Shown in pieces: positions 3,026-60,844 of a DNA stretch of 64,000 nucleotides. The notes below the pieces were generated by a model that was not told the origin of the DNA, searched no databases, and was given only the letters and a program-made list of their open reading frames with translations. The stretch lies in NCBI GenBank assembly GCA_030272155.1, contig CP126191.1:2254501-2318500 (forward strand), in the 5' to 3' direction. The DNA is from Tetradesmus obliquus (lineage: Eukaryota > Chlorophyta > Chlorophyceae > Sphaeropleales > Scenedesmaceae). The position numbers were made by a program, and so were the translations under genes. Within the stretch, counting starts at the first letter, position 1; every line of letters begins with the position of its first letter.

Positions 3026-6000
3026 ATGGAGCGCCAGTCAAGCTTTGGCTCCACCTCCAGTGCTGGGTCTGCCTTCACCAGCCGTTCAGCTACAACAAAG
3101 TACGTGTCAGCACCTGCTCAGCTGTTCTCCTGCAGCTGGTGTCAGTTACTGCAATGGTTGCAGGAAGCAAAGCAGCAGGCAGAGCAACATGCACCCTGCA
3201 GCAACGCTTATGCTACAGCTGGCAGGCTGCCCACAGCACATGCGTAACGTTCTTAACGGTTGTTTTGCATCAGTCCTCAGAGGAGAGAGCACTGCAGCCT
3301 CTCAGGCATCAGAACACTGAGGTGCATGCTCAACATGCAGGTTGGTTAATGAAGCGGAGAAGGAGCAAGGCATTGACAACAATGGCCACAGCCTGCTCAC
3401 GGCGCTGTTCGGTGCACTGTACACCCTTGCCAAGGAAAAGATCAATGACAGCGCCAACGTGGCCATGCTGGCCATCTGGGTGGACTTCCTCATGATCTTC
3501 ACACTCTTACTCATGCCTGAGTACCCCTGGCTGGTGCAGTCGGATCTGTGGTAAGCTTCCAGCACAGGCTCAGGAGCAAGTCTGCAACATGACATGCAGC
3601 AACTGTGCGGCAGTGTGCATACCTGCCGCAGCTGTTCTTTGGCAACACATGCCAGTAACAGCACAAACCACCAGCAGCTGGATACACCTGCTGTGACTAA
3701 CTGAACAGCCGATTCTTTCCATGCTTGTGCACCTGTAACTTGCAGGCTGTACAAGGTGTTCTATTACATTCAGATCCACTTGCCAATTGCCAACGCGGTG
3801 AGGGTCTGTTGTACTCTGCTTATATCAGTGATGGCAGCAGCACTGGATGGCAGAGATGCATGTCTCAGCTATCTCCTGCAAGCATCGATGCTCGACTCTG
3901 GCGTTGCTGGCCGCAGCAGCAGGTTTGGCAGGCTCAGCAAGTGCGGCAGTGATAACAATATGCGTACAAAGCTTAGCAGCAACAGCGGCAGCAGCACTGG
4001 GTGAGCAGCAGCGCTCACGTTCTTTTGCACATGGATCCATGCAGGGCTACAAGTTCTACTTGGTGGTCTTCTACATCCTGGCGGGCATCTTGTTCATCTC
4101 AGTGGCCATCTGCATATGGGTCGGCTGGTGCTTCATGAATGACAACTTCCCCTTCCTGTGGCCCATCAAAGTGGCACGCGTGGTGGTCAGCTTGTTTGTC
4201 AGCATGTTCTACATCGCCTCGCTCAACATATTCTTGATGGCCTGTGCATGCAAAAAGGACGAGTACACACACAAATGGCTCCACTTGGTGTGGCACAACG
4301 GTGCGTGTTGCGCTGGTTGAAAGGGGTTGTGTGCTGCTATTGCTGTTGCTGCAACGGCTGCTGCTGCTGCTTTGTGCACACATGATTGCCTGCAGGAGCA
4401 CTGCACACCGCACACAGCAGGCAACAGCTGAAACCTGCACTTGTTGGTTTGGTTTGTGTATGGCAGTCGTCGGCAAGGCACTCTGCACGTTACTCAAGTG
4501 TTTCCTGCAGCGTAGCGCTGATTTGCTGGCCGTGCCTACTGCTGCTGCCGCTGCCACTCAACAGAGTGTTTCAGCCTTCCACACCTGATCCATGTTGCTT
4601 TCAGCATAACCAGCGGGGTGGTGTTCTTTACAGTCGCCTTGCTGCTGGTGAGCGAATGTTGCAGCAGCTTTCCGTCCTTGGCAGCATGCTTGCTTGTAGT
4701 TCCACTTTGCAAGTAACGGGGCTGACCAAACCTTTGCTTGCTCAGCAACATACCGCCTCCAGAGCATCACTGCTGGCGGCAGCACGAGAAGCACAGTCCG
4801 ACATTGCTTTGCTACCTGGCTTAGGCCGTTTTCACTGCCTCATGCACAGCTAGCATGACCGCTGAAAGCCACGTGTGCCTGCCTGCAGGTGCTGGGTGAC
4901 CACGAGTTGGAGCCTATGAGCAAGAGTTTGCTGGCTGCACCCCACAGCATGTGCGAGCTGCGCGCACTGCTCTGCAAGACGCTGATCACCATAGCAGACA
5001 TCATCTTCAAGCCTGCGCCCCACATCCAAGTCGTGATGTACTGCATCGCCTGCGGCCTGCTGTTCTACTACCATGCACGCATGGTGAGCAGCAGCATGCA
5101 ACTGCAGCGGTCAAATACGCCATGGATGGCAAGCGGATCGAACAGAATATACGCAGAAAGTCAGTACATAGGAACGAGCATGCTGCAGCTATACAAGGGC
5201 TGATGGCGACACACACATGTGACTCCTGCCTGCCATTGCCGCAGGTGCCTCACTACGTGCCATGGATCAACGTCTTGAGGGGAGGCTTGAATGCTGTCCT
5301 GGCGTGGGTGGCGCTGCTGGCCTGCATCCTGTCATACACTGTGGAGTGGGAGTATGACCACGGCCATCCTGTGTGGCACGCTGAGGAGTACCGCCGCACC
5401 ATGACAGTGGTGAGCAGTGCTCTGTGTGGTGTGCCCACACCTCGGTGTTTTGCAGCCACATGCTTGGTGTTTTGTGCGCCTGGCATGCAGAGGAGCCTTT
5501 CTTAGGTACAGCAGTGCCAGCTGGCTTTTTTCGGCTGCAGTGTCTCATCCAGGCCCTTTCCCTGTCCGAGAATTGCACATTACCTCCATATCAACTGCCA
5601 TGCTGTTGTTGGCCGTTCTTGCGCAGGTGATGGCCGTAGGCGTGCCAGTCATGTTCATTGTCGGCGCCGGCATCTGCTGGCTGCGCCTCGTGTATGCCTG
5701 GCGCACAGCGCTCAAGTTCAAGCAGCTGCCAGCAGGCGTGAAGCCGCGCAGCATCCACCGCTTCACCAGCGAGTTTGATGTTGAGGTTGCCAGCCGCATC
5801 GGGCGTGTCTGGGATGAGGACGGCGTGCTGGATGCAGCGGCAACAGAGATCGCAGAGAATGTGCTCAAGGTGGGGACACTATGTTGGGTGGTTAATCAGA
5901 TAGCATATGCGGGCTTTGGCAGCATAACATCCTGCGACATGATGCACCACGAGAAGACAGACAGCTTGCTGTTGCCCGCAGGTTTTTAGTGCTCCACGAC

Positions 6001-9000
6001 AAGCAGATGACCATGCAGCAAGCAGAACAGCTTTATTCTTGGCTCACGCAGGAGCTATACCTGCCGCCGGAGCACAAGTGCTGACTGACGGCTGGCTATG
6101 TACTCCTGCTCCGTTGTGTGGGTGTTCTGTGCTGGCCGCAGGCTGGAGTGGCTATGAAGCCCAACAGTGTGTTCCTGCATATTGTCTACTCCAACTACCT
6201 GATCGATGTGCGGCACAACCACCAGCTGGGCTGGAACCACCTGGAGCAGGCGAAGAAGCTGGAGCCCAACCTCAGCTACCAGTTCAGCATCTTCACGCGC
6301 GGGCAGGAGCACAAGCAGAAGGCTGCTGGAGGAGGCAGCGGCAACAATGAGAGTGTGGACCTGGTGTCCTATGTGGAGTTCCAGAAGAACTACAGGTGAT
6401 TGCGCTGACAAACACGGCTGAGATGCGGGCTTGGAAGCAAGTTTGCTCTCGCAGGAACACTTTGCACATGGTACCATGGGAGTCCACGTAGACGCCGCAG
6501 CTGCTACCTGAAGCACTCGGCCAATGTACACGCACGGCACTGACCCACGCCTGTGCTGTGCCGCTGCCTGCACGGCTGCGCAGGGCGCTGCTGGTGTACC
6601 ACAAGGCCTCGCTGGTGGCCACGCGCGACTTCTGGCGGCTGCTGACGCGCGAGGTCATCCCCATGGAGCGCCTGGGCCACAGCTTCAAGCGCATCGACGA
6701 GATGGAGCTCATGGCTGAGAAGACCTACAAGCTGGTGCTGGACCGCTACCCCACCAACGCCAAGCTGCTGAAGAGCTACGGCAAGTTCCTGGAGCACGTC
6801 AAGGTGAGCCGCCTGCAGCTGGGCGCCAGGATGCCCTGTTGGTGTGGCAGAACTCAATGCAGGAGATGCGGGGCGTGAGGCTGACGGGCTTTCAGGGGCT
6901 TCGCTAGAGACAAGGCACAGTGGCGCGACAGCATGTGTGCCTGTGTTGGCAGCCTTTGCGTCCGACTTTGTTTGAATGGAGATGTTGGAGCAGGAAAGAA
7001 GCCTTGAACCCCACGCCCTGATTTGCACAGTTGTTAACAGCACCCCATGGGTCGTTCTGTAACAGCTTAACATGTTTGGTTGCAGAACGACCCATGGGGT
7101 GCTGCCCGCTACTATGCTGAGGCTGAAAAGCAGGAGGAGCTGGCAGAGAGCAATGCCACAGAGCTGAACGTGAGCAGAAATGGCGACAACTTGTGTAGAG
7201 CAGCAGCCGTGCACCACTTGAAGTGCTTGGGGCATACAGGCATGTGAAACACTGGAGTACTGCATGTTGTTGCCACCACCTGTGTATGATGAACATCACA
7301 CGACAACCAGAACACTACGTGTAGTTGCAGTTGCTGCACTTGTACAGGTAGAATTTGACTGCCGGCGTGCATGTATGCCAGACTGAAGCATGCGGCTGCT
7401 TGCACCATGCCCCTTGTGCATTCTTGTTTGTGCAGATTGGGGACGGTGAAATCACAGTGGACGACAAGTCTGCAATTGTCACCATCAACGCCCAGGGTAT
7501 CATTCAGCTGGCGAACAAGGTTGCATGCGCCATGTTTGGGTGAGCAGCCAGCAGCTCTAATGCACAGAGCGCTGCATACTTAGTATGTGCCAGCCTGCTG
7601 TGTTGTGCCATAGTTGCTAGGTTGCAGTCAGCATGCCTGCCGTGTACGTTGGCTGTTGCTCAGTTAGATAGAAACGTGTGCTGCATATTTTGATGGTGCC
7701 AGGTACAACAAAGGGGAGCTGGAAGGCAAGAACGTCAACTGCCTGATGCCCCAGCCATTCAGCATGCGCCACAACTCATACCTTAACAACTACATCACCA
7801 CTGGCCATGCCAAGCTGCTGGACGTCACACGCGAGGTGAGCAGCAGGCAACCAGCTTACTCCGCCAATGCATGAACAACAAGCAGCTCATCAGGTGATGC
7901 CATGGCTCACACTGCCAAAGCTGCACCGCAGGTGTAAGATTGTCTAAAACAATGTGAAAGTAAGGAACGTCAAATATTGCAAACAAACTTTGCCAATGCG
8001 CAGGTCGTGGCGCTGCACAAGGACCGCTATGTGTTCCCTGTGACCCTCACAGTCAGCAAGCTGAGCGGCTCGGGAGCTGAGACCACGTTCATGTCTGTGC
8101 TCAAGGTGAGTGAAGGATGATGCGAACTGTCTGTTGATGATGCTGTCTTGCAATGCGTTCTGCATCCACATCGCTTATGCAAGCTAGACAGCATGCTCAC
8201 CTTGGCGTCCTTGAGAAACCAAGTTGTAGCAAAGCCGCTATCATGAGCAGGACATTACACGCAATCACTGCATGTTGGACTTTGCTTGCAGGAAGCTGCT
8301 GAGGGGGACACTGACACCATCAGGGCCTGGCTGCTAATCAGCGGCACCATGCTGTGCGCGGACCAGTCCTTCCTGGACTATGCCGGCTGGTCGCCAGGGG
8401 AGCTGGTGGGCAGGGCCTTCAGCAGCTTGGGGGCAGACAGCAGCGAGCTAGACGAGTGAGTGGCTGAGGTGGTGAAAGAAACTAACAATAACTAACACCT
8501 GCTGTGTTTGTGCTCCTTGGTGTAGCTTTTCCTCATGTGCTTACATAGTCCAGGTAGTCCAGCACGTGTTGGTGCACTCGTTCTGCAGTTGAGCAGCTCA
8601 TCGACAGGTCTTGTGTAGCCTTGAGTTGAGAGGGTGGCTGTTGCACCTGCTGCTCCTCTGTTCTGCAGCTTGGTCGCCAGCTGTGCCAACTGCACTGAGC
8701 AGGAGCTCAAGGCAGGGGCAGTGCAGATCAAGACAACCATCAGGCACAAGTATGCACAGGACGTGCCAGTCAGCATCAAGTTTGAGATGGGAGGTGAGCC
8801 AGCACAGAATGCTTATGTATGCATGTAGTTCTGCAATATTTGTCAGTCCAGCACGCAGTGGACTCAACATAGTGTTTGCACTTCATGATTTGCAGTACAG
8901 CACAGCCCCACTCTGTATCAGAGTAACACCAGTTTCTCTGCAGTAATGTCCAGGCTGGCTGACTCACGTATGCTTTGTGCATGTCATCAGGCACGGAGAG

Positions 9001-15000: not shown

Positions 15001-18000
15001 GTCTGGCTTGACGTGCCCTGCAGACGACAAGGTGATGCAGGCAGCTGAAGCAAAACGGCAGAAGAAGAAGAAGCAGGGTGCTGAGGACAATGCGCGGGAG
15101 GAGGGCAACTTGTCGATAGCAGGCAAGGGCCCAGGCACAGATGGTGGCCCGCCCACCGCATCAAAGAGGAACCGCAAGGCCAGCTTTGCACTGGAGGGTG
15201 GCGACGCTACCGTGGTGGTCAACGCTACGCAGGGCGGTGCCTCAAGCTTCACTGCCAAAGGACTCAAGGTGACTGAAACCCCACACCAAATTATGAAACA
15301 GCTCTCTGCAACTGCGATATGGTGGGGTATGTTGCAGACCATGCACTGCTCCAGTGTTGACTAGCAGTACTATTGCGAAGGATAGTTTAAGCGTGGTCTC
15401 AGCTGCACAGCTGCGTACTCAGCCATCGGCACAACCATCACCTGCCTGCTGCTTCTCTGCTGGGTGCTGCTCCTGCTGCAAATGCATCCTGCACCAGGGC
15501 ACCCAGGAAGACAAGGAGAAGCTCTTCAATGGCAAGCAGCTGACCACCAGCGCTGCCTCAGCCTACAAGCTGTCCACGCCGTTTGTGCTGTGGGGCATCC
15601 TTGTTGTGATCCTCTACGCCGTCAGCTACGCGCAATTCAACGGTGTGAGCGACCACATGGTCGTCATTAAGCTGATGCAGCGCAGCTTGGCGCAGTCCAC
15701 TCGGCTCACCTACTTTGCCACGCGGGCTTCGCTGGAGCCGGTGAGTCGCAGCGCTGTACCCACAGCCACAGCTGGCAGCTGCTGCTCAGGTGGTGGGATA
15801 TGCTGCCAATAGCGTGTGCTTTGTGTGCAATACTATGCTCCCAGCTGCAGACACATGACATATTGTGCACAGCACATATGCGTGCTGCCTGGCAGCAGTG
15901 ACATATAGTCTGTGATCTTTTCAGTATCAACTGCCTTGCTCATTCTGTGCTATGGCTCCTATTCTCTGTGCTGAACGTATGTGTCGTGCGCCTTTGTTCT
16001 TTGTCAACAGAACCCCGCCAAGGTTGCAGCGCTGCAGCCTGTGCTGGAGCACGAGTCAGCGCTGCTTGATGACGTGTACGTTGCTGCGCTGTATGGCGGC
16101 ACCACGCTGCCCGACAGCCTGCTCGATGGCGCCCATGATGTCACTGCAGGCGGCCTGTTTGAGAACAGCCCGTGAGTATCCGGCTAGGCCCAAGGCTGTG
16201 GCATGGTGACTTACGTATGCAAGCAGGGTCCGCCGTGCGGCAGCTGCAGCTCCTGCCTTTGCGCCTGATGTTCCTGTCGTGGCCATGCAGGATGTTGGCA
16301 TGGGTATGTGCATGCGCTGGCTCGTGCAACAGTGGAGAAGTTAACAGTCCCTGGCGCTTCTGGCATTGCCTGTCTTCAATTCCTTGTGTCGTGCCTGTAC
16401 ATGGTGCCTTGCTGTGCAGGCATAAGAAGTACCTCTTCCAGTACGTGGGCTGCATGCGCACGGACAAGGCCACCTGCCTGCCGGAGGGCAGCCCCTTCTA
16501 TGCGGTCAGCACGCATGGCCTTGACCCGATGGTGCAGCGGCTGCGCATGGAGGCAGAGCTCATGAGCATGGAGCCGCCAGCAAACGTGACCCCCAGCAGC
16601 CCCAGGTGCGCAACACACATACAGCAGCGCAGCAGCGCTGGCAGGATAGACAGATGCATGCACCCACCAGCAGCAGCAGCAGCTGTACTACATAGTCTGT
16701 TGTCGGCTCTCCGCATGCTTTCCATGGTGATGTTGTCTCAGGTGCATGCCATCACACCTGTACAGGCTGCTGTCGGGCAAACCTGTGGGCCTGCCATTCA
16801 TAAGTTCATCACACCCAGATGTGTGCGTCGTGCTGGCACACCTACAGCTGCTGCTGCTACTACTGCTGCTAACGCCGCAGGTTTGACTTTGTCTGGAAAG
16901 TGGCCTTCAACGACATGCATGACGGGATGACCCAGCTGACGTCGCTGATCCTGCACCAGATTGGCCAGAAGTACGACTCGCAGCGCAACACACACGTCAT
17001 CCTGTTGCTCGTCATGGTGAGCGTGCAGCGAGTGTGACGTACTAGTGCCAGCACAACCAGCACTTTATTTGTGCTTCAGCTGCATTTGTGGTGCATTGCC
17101 GCAGTTGCTGTGCCCTTGTCACCTGCCTACTTTGTTAAGGCTGCACCTGCCCACCTGTCTGCCACTGCACTTGATGCCACTGCCCGCTGCTCCATTTAAG
17201 CACTCCTAAGCGTTACTAAGCCGGCTGGCATGCCGTGCCTGCTGCTGCTGCTGCTGCTGCTGCAGCTTGTTGCTGGCGGCGTGTTCCTGGTGATGATGCT
17301 GCGGCCCTTCCTCAAGCACATCTCCAAGGAGAGCAGGCGCTGCGCGGAGCTGCTGGCGCAGCTGCCGCCAGACATGGACGTGGAGGGCATGGTGGCGGCT
17401 ACGTGGAGCGTGGTCAAGCAGGTGCGGCAGCAAACAGGATCGCCTGGACACACGCAAGGATGAACTGACTGCTGCCGTTGGCCTCATTTGCTGCGCAAGC
17501 AACTGTCGCGTGCCCTGGCTTGTAACAACACAGCATGCGCAACACATGCACTGAATGGAGCCTTCACGCGCTACCTGCCGCTGTTTTTGCTGCAACCCTG
17601 TGCTGCGATGCTGCGTCTGTTGTGCCGCAGGAGCGCATTCTGGCTGAGCGCAGCGGCAAATCTTTCATCAATGCCATCGGTGGCAGCACACTGCTCAATC
17701 GCCTGAGCTTCATCGGAGGGCCGCGGCCGATCTTCAGCCAGCCACAGCTCGGCCCGCCGCCGCTGCTTGGCGGCAAGAGCAACAGGTGGGCGGTGCAGCA
17801 ACTGACGAATGTTGGTGTATTTCACGGCAGCAGGCAGCATTTAAGGCCTTTACTGCTGCAGCGGAGGATTTGTACACACAAGAACGTGCGTTGCTGTGTG
17901 CTTTGATGCCGCTGCATGCTTGCACGGTGAGTGGCTGTGGTAGTTACTGCCTCGTATGCTGGTGTGCTCCTGTTGCTCCACACACGCCTGAGCATGACAC

Positions 18001-21547: not shown

Positions 21548-23128
21548 TCACGCGTCCATTGCAGCCACGCCGCCGCCTGCTGCAGCCGCTGCTGCCTGCC
21601 TAGCAAGGCGGATCTCTGCCAGTGCCGCCTGCAGTGGTGAGGCAGCTGAGACATAGCCCGCAGCACCACTCAAGGCAGCCGGCGGGGACACTGGCCGTCC
21701 ACCGCTGCTCGCCCGTGCTGCCCGCCGCTCCCTGTACTTGTCTGCCTTGCTGCCTGCCTTGCTGCTGCCACCGTCCTGCGCTGCTGCTGCAGCAGGTGCA
21801 GCAGCTGCTGCCGCCTGAAGCGCTGTCAGCAGTGCCAGAGGGGAGGGTGCGCCGCCTGATGCTGCTGCTGCTGCTGCCACAGCTGCTGCGAGTGCTGCAG
21901 GGTCAGCCTGGCCGCCTGAGGCTGCTGCCATTGCTGCTGCAAGCAGCGCAGGGTCCAGAGCAGCAGCAGGATGTGCGGAAGCTGGCGTGGGCAGGCCGCT
22001 GCTGCCTTGCTGCTGCAAGGCAGCAGCAGCAGCTGCGTCAGGATAGCCTCCTGTTGCTGTTGCCAGCAGCTGTTGCAGCTGAGCAGCACTGGCAGCATCA
22101 CTCCAGCCCGCTGCGCTGCTCTGCGCAATGTGCAGGCTGCTGAGCTCAGGAGCAGGCGGCAGGGTAGCCGCTGCAGCCTCTGCTGCTGCAGCGGCAGCTG
22201 CCGCGGCCGCTGCTGTGGTGCTGGCATCGCTGCCGCCAGCAGCCAGGCGGGCAGCCAGCGCCAGGGCCGCTGCTGGGTCTGCTGCCATTGCTGCTGGGTC
22301 TGCTGACTGCAGAATCTTCCTGAGTATGCTGGCAGCATCGCCTGCACCAGCGAGCGCTGCGACACCAGCTGCTGCTGCTGCATCATCACATGGGCTGGCA
22401 TCCACAGCACTGGGGCCCCTGGCAGAGGCTTGACATGGCGAGGACGGCAGCACAAGCTGCGGCTGCACGTCTAAAGCAGCTGCACCTGCGCCTGCCCTGC
22501 CCATACCTGCCGCAGCTGCCGCTGCAGCTGCTGCTGCGGCTGCAGCTGCTGCTTGGCCAGGCAGGGCTGTTTCACTGCTCAGGTTGCTGCTGCTGCCATG
22601 GTGGTGTGCCAGGTGCAGCGCCTGCTGCTGTGGCTGCTGCTGTGGCTGTGGAGGTTCCTGTTGGCTGTTGAGCAGCTTAACTAGCACATCCATCATTTCC
22701 AAGTCAGGTGCCAGTGACAGCTGCCCGCCCTGCTGCACCCGCTGTTTCACAAGGTTGCAGCATGCCAGCGCTGTCGCCAGCAATAAAGCACTAGGCACTA
22801 TTACATTGCCAGATGGAGCTGAGCGCACGACATACTGCTCGATCGCCCCGACTGCTGCGCTAGCGAGCTGCTGCTCCTGTTCGGGAGAAAGACCGTTGTT
22901 GCCGCCCGCAGCAGCTGGCGCTTGAACATCTGGAGCTACATGAGTTTCCGCCTCTGCCACTGCAGCCTCAGCAAGCAAGTCCAGGTGCGACACCGCTTTC
23001 TGCATTCTGGCAGTCGTGGCCACGGCGGACACGTATGCGGAATATTGATCGAAGCTGGAACAGAGGATAGCAAATAGAGGGGACTTGATGCTGTAGGTGC
23101 TGGGCCGCACACCACCACCGGTGCTGAC
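21548..23128 (-). CDS. Ala/Gln-rich low-complexity protein of unknown function
   Basis: I do not recognise this protein. One exon of up to 527 codons ends in TGA at 21548. The first ~60 residues look like ordinary folded sequence (PSTYSIKSPLFAILCSSFDQ, then YSAYVSAVATTARMQKAVSHL). The middle holds Gln- and His-rich tracts and many 8-14-residue Ala runs. The C-terminus has a short basic patch (DKYRERRAARASSGGRP) and an amphipathic helix-like end (LQAALAEIRLARQ). The start is unresolved: an in-frame TAG lies at 23141-23143, and the first in-frame ATG is 23005. Because the sequence before it looks coding, an upstream exon joined at the acceptor CTACCAG|GTCAGC (exon start 23128) is more likely. 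Ala/Gln-rich algal proteins with small basic patches are often transcriptional or RNA-binding regulators, but nothing here proves that. Long antisense frames are shadows of the triplet repeats. Confidence 0.65.
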   Translation of the reverse strand, partial: VSTGGGVRPSTYSIKSPLFAILCSSFDQYSAYVSAVATTARMQKAVSHLDLLAEAAVAEAETHVAPDVQAPAAAGGNNGLSPEQEQQLASAAVGAIEQYVVRSAPSGNVIVPSALLLATALACCNLVKQRVQQGGQLSLAPDLEMMDVLVKLLNSQQEPPQPQQQPQQQALHLAHHHGSSSNLSSETALPGQAAAAAAAAAAAAAAAGMGRAGAGAAALDVQPQLVLPSSPCQASARGPSAVDASPCDDAAAAAGVAALAGAGDAASILRKILQSADPAAMAADPAAALALAARLAAGGSDASTTAAAAAAAAAAAEAAAATLPPAPELSSLHIAQSSAAGWSDAASAAQLQQLLATATGGYPDAAAAAALQQQGSSGLPTPASAHPAAALDPALLAAAMAAASGGQADPAALAAAVAAAAAASGGAPSPLALLTALQAAAAAAPAAAAAQDGGSSKAGSKADKYRERRAARASSGGRPVSPPAALSGAAGYVSAASPLQAALAEIRLARQAAAAAAGGGVAAMDA

Positions 23129-58531: not shown

Positions 58532-60844
58532 ATGGCCACGGCAACAGCACCGGGGGCCTCTCAAAATGTATTGAAGCGACAGACAGCCACAGTTGATTGT
58601 CCCAAGAGTATGGTGGGCAGGGTGATTGGAAAATCTGGAGAGACAATCAAGGCGCTGCAGACATACACAGGAGCGCTGATCCAGATCGATCAAACTGTGG
58701 AGCCAACCAGTTGAGTGCGAGGCGCCTGGCGAGAAGCAGCATAGGCCGAGCAAGGGCCCCTGCCAGGGCCCAAAGTTTGCAGCATGCATGTGTACCGCCC
58801 GTGGCTGGCAAGGCTGTCGTTTATGAAGTCCAGATTGTTTCAAGGTGCATTTCAGGCCAAGAGTGGCGCGTGCAGCGTCGGTTCGCTGCGCATGCTGCTC
58901 AAACTTCACACATGTCTCTGCTCTTGCAGAGGTCACGATCAGCGGCACGCCACACAGCTTGTCACTGGCAGTGTCAATGGTTACAGACATCGTGAAGGGC
59001 ACCTTCAAGGGCTTCGCCCTGCTGCGGCAGATAACCAACCCAGGGGGAGCGCGACCAGGGCCAGTGGCCAACCCCATGGCCCAGCCTCGACCCGTGTACG
59101 CCCCTGGCTATGGGTTGATCCCACCCTCGCAGGTGAGGCGCGCTGAGCGGTGCCAACGCTGGCATGGCGCCATCCTAGGCCTACCACTCGCTTCGTACAG
59201 GCCCACGGCGGCCAGGACTTCGATCAGGAACTTTGCAGCATTTAAGTAAATACCTTTGTCTATCTTGCAAATTTTGTAACGGTTGTGATCGGCATCAGGG
59301 CTACGACGACTTGACCGCCTAGATACACTGTGATTTGCTGCTGACCTGCTCCCCTGCGTGTACTCTTGCAGCTGTACGGTGCAGATGAGCGCACAGCAGG
59401 CGTTGTGCCCGTCAACTACGGCGGTAGGAGCACACAGGCAGCAGTGGGCTGGGCCCCAGGGCAGGTTACACCATCGCAGATGATCCTGGTGAGCAGCAGT
59501 ACCCCTTGTGCGTTGCAGTGCGTGCAGCAGCTGCTGAGACATCAGGGAGCATCTAGACAGCCACATCGATCATCAGCGACAGGCTCTTGGCTGTTGGTGC
59601 AGTGGGCAAGCGGGCATGGCCGCATGCTGCACAGCTGTACAGCAGTCGGGTCCCAACTGCGTCTTGAGCATTGTTGTGACAGCCCCCCAACCTCTTGCGT
59701 GCAACTTTTTGCTTGTGCAGAACATGCCGCCAGCTGGAGTGGTGCGCCCCATGGGCCAGCCAGGCATGCTGGGAGGTGCGCTTGCACAGCAGCAGGCACA
59801 GCAGCAGAAGCAGCAGCAACACAATGGCAGCCCTGTCCGTGCAGCGCTGCAGCTCCAGCCAGCTGCTGGCGGCGTGCATTGCCAAGAGCTGTGCACTGGC
59901 ACGTGCACCTGTGCAGCTGCAGAGTGCCGTCTTGCAGGAGTTGCAAGAGTTGCGGGAGTTTTGTAATGTGTAGCAGTGGCAGCAGCAGCAGCAGCAGTGA
60001 AACTGCAAGGGTACTGCTGCTGCGCAATGGATCGTTGCTGCTGCCTTAACGCGCATATCACGCGAAACCCAGCAGCAGGTCAGTTTAGTTGCAGGCTGCG
60101 GCACTTCCGCTGGCTGGAGAGTCGCATCATCACTGCTTTGGTGTGCCAGCGCGCGTTCATTCCGATTGGCTGACATGCTGCTGCTGCTGCTGCTGCTGCA
60201 GGCGAGGAGGCCATGATGGGTCCTATGCCTGGCTACGCAGCAGGCATGGCTCCAATGTATGCGTACCCGCCAGAGTACGGCATGCCAGGTGCGCAGCTGG
60301 CGGTGTTGCAGATGTAGGAGGGCGGGAGCAGCCTGCAGCGCCCGAGGCGTGGCTGGTGCCTGGATGCAGTACGTTGTGTGTGGTCCCTCTGGCCCTGTGT
60401 GAGGAGGCCGTGCATGTCAGCAGCTGGCCACCCACCCAACAGGAGACACCATACAGGATGTTCACCTGCTGTTGGTGCGCTGCACCACGCAGTGGTGTCT
60501 TCTGCTGCTGACAGCAACCATTGGCGTGCTGCTGCTGCTGCTGCTGCTGTCGCCGCGCAGGCATGATGCAGGCGCCGGAGGTCATGTACGGCGACCCCAA
60601 CGGCATGATGGGCGGCGGCGGCCTGGCAGGCAGCCAGGCGCGGCTGTACCACGCAGCGGGCGGGCCCAAGGCCGCGGGCGGGCCGGGCGGCCAGGGCCGC
60701 AGCAACGGCCCCGCCAAGAGCAGCAGCGCGGGCGACATGGCGGGAGACGTGATGGGCAGCGGCGCGCCGCTGCAGGGCGGCAACTGGGTGCAGGTGATGG
60801 ACCCGGACGGCAAGGTGTACTACTTGAACCAGGGGCAGCAGTAG
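58532..60844 (+). CDS. Single-KH-domain RNA-binding protein with Gly/Met-rich tail
   Basis: Probably binds single-stranded RNA. Exons 58532-58709, 58930-59132, 59372-59488, 59721-59775, 60202-60288 and 60561-60844 (TAG); 307 residues. ATG at 58532. The KH domain spans ~19-85: ATVDCPKSMVGRVIGKSGET carries the GxxG loop (GKSG, 33-36), followed by TGALIQIDQTVEPTK and VTISGTPHSLSLAVSMVTDI. The exon 1 donor is GTTGAG, weaker than usual, but gives the exact phase and the expected Lys. The exon 4 end is uncertain: GTGCGC at 59776 fits phase, but a longer exon including a Gln-rich stretch is possible. The tail is Gly/Pro/Met/Tyr-rich (MMGPMPGYAAGMAPMYAYPP) and ends NWVQVMDPDGKVYYLNQGQQ, like the first half of a WW domain. 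Confidence 0.88.

Follow-up and report, generated by a model that had tools for sequence, protein, structure and literature searches.

A probable local template-switch insertion places a 3' splice site of a TmcB-like gene in a predicted 26-pair hairpin

A predicted intron of a TmcB-like gene of Tetradesmus obliquus ends in a perfect inverted repeat that takes in its own 3' splice site. The question raised by this locus is how such a repeat arose, and whether the hairpin it could form controls the splicing of the exon that follows or is a scar left by mutation. The sequence-only reading of the window, by which we mean the whole stretch of 64,000 nt that was analysed, had reported that 7038–7059 is the perfect reverse complement of 7083–7104 across a loop of 23 nt, and both the arms and the loop proved to be exact (Table 1). 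The right arm divides at the predicted splice junction into the acceptor CAG (7083–7085) and 19 exon bases (7086–7104).

Table 1. Features of the hairpin and its host gene, in window positions.
Feature	Position	Strand	Description or basis
TmcB-like gene (TPR + PAS), modelled part	5630..8457	+	8 exons, 7 GT-AG introns, open frame
Host intron (predicted), 282 nt, GT-AG	6804..7085	+	gene model
Phase-0 exon (predicted), 84 nt, end of TPR_TmcB match	7086..7169	+	gene model, domain match
Left (intronic) arm, CAGCACCCCATGGGTCGTTCTG, presumptive inverted copy	7038..7059	+	exact reverse complement of 7083-7104; pair table, fold
Right arm, presumptive source: acceptor CAG + first 19 bases of exon 7086-7169	7083..7104	+	codes NDPWGA
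Loop between perfect arms	7060..7082	+	7060-7063/7079-7082 also pair, leaving 15 nt
Direct repeat TAACAGC, copy 1	7035..7041	+	last four bases = entry microhomology CAGC
Direct repeat TAACAGC, copy 2	7060..7066	+	AAC in repeat = exit microhomology

All splice sites of the host gene were predicted from the reading frame, GT-AG ends and homology. The eight modelled exons join without a stop codon, and the gene extends past the modelled part. Since the eight-exon model is open, we rejected the idea of a broken gene, which a suspected missing donor near 6080 had raised. When a 181-aa part of the protein was searched, a TPR_TmcB domain (PF25474; E 1.1e-25, 90.5 bits against a cut-off of 27) was found followed by a PAS domain (PAS_9: E 1.5e-6, 28.9 against 27; PAS: E 2.3e-6, 28 against 22.6), which places the gene among TmcB-like genes. 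The exon at 7086–7169 codes NDPWGAARYYAEAEKQEELAESNATELN, and the TPR_TmcB match, which spans query residues 6–96, finishes on the first 22 of these residues (75–96). A protein search outside the source genome returned five bacterial loci only, with none confirmed in viral contigs, and a 20-mer from the exon had no match in viral contigs. These relatives of the PAS half, 37–45% identical, come from Magnetococcales, Methylomonas, a betaproteobacterium, Hahella and a Methylococcaceae bacterium (loci L042–L046).

The repeat had been judged very unlikely to occur by chance, and this judgement held, as the 22-mer had no match with up to three mismatches in any of 100 dinucleotide shuffles of the window. 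Perfect inverted repeats of at least 12 bp within about 150 nt were scanned for in the window and in 20 samples of the source genome, each 10 kb long. The samples were taken near 0.3 Mb on 12 of the 17 contigs and near 0.6 Mb on 8 of those 12; two of them, from C2, consisted wholly of N, so that 244 kb could be read. CAG/CTG-type repeats aside, no perfect inverted repeat with arms of 14 bp or longer was found at short range in these 244 kb other than the 7038–7104 hairpin, a rate that is rough because the sample is small and the window was picked on account of its hairpin. All other arms of at least 14 bp were low-complexity by a triplet filter and of CAG/CTG type, and six unflagged 13-bp arms were listed in the scan. 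Order-2 Markov copies of all 21 sequences, generated in five rounds, contained arms of 12 to 15 bp only (two of 14 and one of 15). Across the whole genome (104,662,953 bases in 17 contigs), in a DNA search that skips very common words, the 22-mer was found only as these two arms at up to two mismatches, with a control count of 0. Within its own intron, the last 10 intron bases being left out, the longest inverted match to the acceptor was 22 nt here versus 5–7 nt for the six other modelled acceptors. The shuffles, the Markov copies and the pairing of the arms together rule out a simple chance origin.

Nearly all of the longer inverted repeats in the window and the samples are CAG/CTG triplet runs lying close together in opposite orientation. 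Such runs occur at 59979–60199, 21860–22033 and 16669–16858 in the window and in the sampled stretches L021, L035, L019 and L029.

As RNA, the stem is predicted to be longer than the perfect arms: 7038–7063 pairs with 7079–7104 in 26 consecutive pairs, which are also present in the minimum free energy structure; a single one of them is G-U (the T-G wobble 7060/7082), followed inward by three more pairs. The RNA fold of 7015–7125 had an energy of −63.4 kcal/mol versus a shuffle mean of −32.35 (z = −9.86), with 0 of 200 shuffles as stable, and the same region folded as DNA gave −33.7 (z = −8.84). Within the loop lies a branch-point-like CTTAAC (7066–7071), which we take to be a plausible branch site; loop bases 7069–7071, including its adenines at 7069–7070, had pairing probabilities of 0.00–0.02.

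To decide which arm is the original, we turned to related genes. A protein search of the source genome gave at least 16 matches, of which four lie at the host gene and the remaining 12 are spread over eight further loci (four on C5 and one each on C8, C9, C11 and C12), and tblastn on 11 of 18 loci covered all eight of these paralogous loci. At every one of the eight loci found, the frame runs uninterrupted, with no intron, across the junction between the preceding exon and 7086, and at five of them (the four on C5 and that on C11) the next junction (7169/7436) is read through as well. The motif at the first junction varies, being NDPW at three loci (one on C5, C8 and C12), NEPG at three C5 loci, NDPE at C11 and HDPP at C9, and the C8 paralog has a stop 11 residues past the junction. 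In the paralog L004, an exon ending in ...VLK is followed directly by an exon that aligns to the AGVAMKPNS exon of the window gene, which also speaks against a broken host gene. Since the frame is continuous at all eight loci, the exon start is old coding sequence and the intronic arm is derived; on this comparison the exon arm is the presumptive source and the intron arm its copy.

Between 4.30 and 4.40 Mb on C5, four TmcB-like paralogs lie within about 90 kb, 49–55% identical to the window gene over the matched region. The C8 paralog holds short exon pieces in several similar copies (AGLARFPHSGHMVLVY..., MFGYRKGELEGKNV), a pattern that tandem duplication of exon-intron units could give (L015 120–203 and 248–376; L011 about 1040–1570).

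There is good support for the earlier suggestion that the start of the exon underwent a templated inverted duplication, in the uniqueness of the 22-mer, the coding source arm and the copied intronic CAG, and the suggestion is further backed by short matches at both ends of the copy and a 7-bp direct repeat around it. The left arm lies in a 25-nt unit, equal to the repeat spacing, between the TAACAGC copies, and the original and copied strands have CAGC in common at the entry and AAC at the exit. Besides the 19 exon bases, the left arm reproduces the intronic CAG and also GTTG, the latter with one base altered. Beyond the junction, the copy agrees at 6 of 7 bases with the end of the intron as it stands before splicing (CTG exactly, then TAAC for CAAC), versus 3 of 6 for a spliced template ending in the preceding exon. 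This makes DNA the better template, and a copy made from spliced RNA is disfavoured. In the window, 7-mers repeated at exactly 25 nt occur at 18 of 63,968 positions, and 7-mers repeated at any spacing of 15–40 nt are not rare (771 positions, 1.2%).

A short-range template switch, or fold-back, very likely inserted the hairpin arm. Insertions of this kind are expected to show microhomology at the switch points and possibly a flanking direct repeat. Both are found here (CAGC, AAC and TAACAGC), as is the hallmark local reverse-complement copy, matched at 22 of 22 bases before the one G-U and three further pairs; against this reading, the two joints are only 4 and 3 nt long and overlap in part with the arm. 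In such an event, a DNA strand ending in ...TTAACAGC would have used the 4-nt CAGC to pair with a GCTG of the exon start (today 7101–7104), which in the putative ancestor lay some 35 bases downstream. The strand would then have copied ACCCCATGGGTCGTTCTG, inverted, across the exon/intron junction and returned to its own template through AAC, and the outcome would be a 25-nt insertion between 7-bp direct repeats together with a perfect hairpin. Quasi-palindromes are the classic trigger of these events, and we saw no sign of a pre-existing one in the outer flank, which pairs at 7 of 12 positions, no better than chance (P = 0.13). On the same count, an older and longer inverted repeat with a decayed outer part is unsupported. 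A mobile element, MITE or introner is likewise unsupported, as the 22-mer pair and intron bases 6804–7034 are each found at one place in the genome and no introner-like copies were seen there.

The 18 copied bases between the anchors do not differ between the arms, which puts a 95% upper bound, calculated by hand, of about 0.17 substitutions per site on their separation if neutral. The absence of change over these bases suggests that the insertion is young. We infer the mechanism, the ancestor (the present sequence with one 25-nt unit removed) and the fairly young age of the event from these features, and regard the hairpin as real, probably young and probably in the main a mutational scar.

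The four-point model of template-switch mutation is reportedly due to Loytynoja and Goldman, and the present case resembles mutations of that type in its short microhomologies, net insertion and stable hairpin. The inverted local copy and the perfect arms are likewise features that it has in common with the short-range events treated in the relevant parts of PMC8794818 and PMC7954356. As presented there, template switching makes perfect stems in one event (PMC8794818), and templated inserts in great apes have a median of 12 and a maximum of 128 nt, with 65.0% of events lengthening the sequence (PMC7954356). Unlike those cases, the piece copied here spans a splice acceptor and the first exon bases, and the ancestor is a reconstruction. 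The hairpin is a fresh example of a known mutation class, the local template-switch insertion, in an unusual place.

We then considered what the hairpin might do to splicing. It had been proposed that the stem would hide the acceptor, and as a prediction of folding this is supported: in local folds the acceptor AG was paired with a probability of about 1.00 in all three contexts tried. With the 25-nt unit removed in silico, the probability was 0.66–0.68 in the one context used, so the insertion is predicted to raise the burial of the acceptor from a level that was not low. Among eight other acceptor-like sites in the gene, those at 5626, 6141, 8291 and 8668 (the last outside the modelled exons) have both A and G paired at P ≥0.62 in both contexts, and those at 6583, 7435, 7702 and 8003 do not. 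As half of these sites are mostly paired, a paired AG is by itself weak evidence of a hidden acceptor. The stem is exceptional, but pairing of the AG appears to be common in the host gene and is presumably tolerated. In the pre-mRNA the stem would fold locally, burying the acceptor and leaving the branch-point-like site free, and on the predicted fold weaker splicing is plausible. We think it most likely that the exon is spliced constitutively and that efficiency falls modestly if at all, which would make the insertion, in our judgement, a tolerated mutation and not a regulator.

The main alternative is that the hairpin is a working switch, in which the hidden acceptor causes the exon to be skipped (6803 joined to 7436) or the intron to be retained unless the stem is opened by some factor or condition. 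Such a switch would gain from the rise in predicted AG pairing over the sequence lacking the 25-nt unit, and from the exon itself, which is 84 nt long, so that skipping keeps the frame, as the sequence-only reading had noted; it is in phase 0 on both sides, and the skipped form has no stop. It also has precedents: in the part of PMC11802352 concerned with them, structures masking splicing signals are described for MAPT exon 10 and SMN2 exon 7, at 5' splice sites, and for F8 intron 15, near the 3' splice site, and PMC4615370, in the portion relevant here, gives one tested exon whose inclusion was inversely correlated with hairpin stability. The present locus is like the former in that a splicing signal is covered in the predicted fold; unlike them, as they are described with functional evidence in that part of PMC11802352, it is a prediction, with a stem of 26 consecutive pairs. 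The further claim that regulated skipping is plausible found no support. If the exon were skipped, 28 codons would be lost, and the final 22 residues of the TPR_TmcB match with them; the eight paralogous loci, all uninterrupted at the junction, give no sign of conserved skipping and carry neither a conserved structure nor an alternative exon there. Pairing as common as that at the other acceptor-like sites does not predict failure. Stops would follow from retention of the intron or from use of the cryptic AGs at 7040 and 7065. Of the 10 AGs within the exon, 7 would preserve an open reading frame, so in-frame alternatives to skipping exist. We consider a working switch unlikely. The fuller proposal, that one template switch put the acceptor in the 26-pair stem and the branch site in its loop and so created a structure-gated exon in a TPR/PAS sensor-like gene, is somewhat less likely again.

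A different role would be that a Dicer-like enzyme cuts the stem to yield a left-arm RNA perfectly antisense to its own exon, a nascent self-targeting MIRNA formed by inverted duplication. The 26-pair stem would suit such a role, and miRNA hairpins have been inferred to arise through template switching (PMC8794818). According to PMC4817775, many Chlamydomonas miRNAs come from introns and UTRs through DCL3, splicing was not needed for the one that was tested, and the tested intronic miRNA stem, lying inside the intron, did not prevent splicing. The long stem-loop in an intron is like those treated there, but the present stem crosses into the exon, and splicing would break it. Similarity to miRNA precursors was seen in Rfam (best E 1.2e-5, minus strand); the five matches at E up to 1, on either strand, are however all to miRNA models from animals or viruses, of a sort that any long stem might produce, and none reached the gathering score (best 35.6 bits against 80), so no curated RNA family applies. 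On balance we regard a MIRNA as very improbable. An artefact of assembly or library preparation is hardly credible as the source of the inverted copy: although the locus is known from a single assembly, that assembly consists of 17 large contigs, the genome has the 22-mer pair at a single place, and the 25-nt insert differs at one base (7060) and is bounded by a clean direct repeat.

The reading that we favour, a local template-switch insertion that copied a splice acceptor onto itself, makes this locus a clean natural case of such an event. A narrow search of the open-licence literature found no report of a template-switch mutation at a splice site, and we make no claim that none is in print. 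If the exon were structure-gated after all, alternative splicing would here have been born at once and not via the gradual weakening of splice sites. If the gene is expressed, it amounts to a natural experiment on the strength of co-transcriptional hairpin that a spliceosome will accept over a 3' splice site, and if it is spliced normally, it would limit the use of fold predictions for calling regulated exons.
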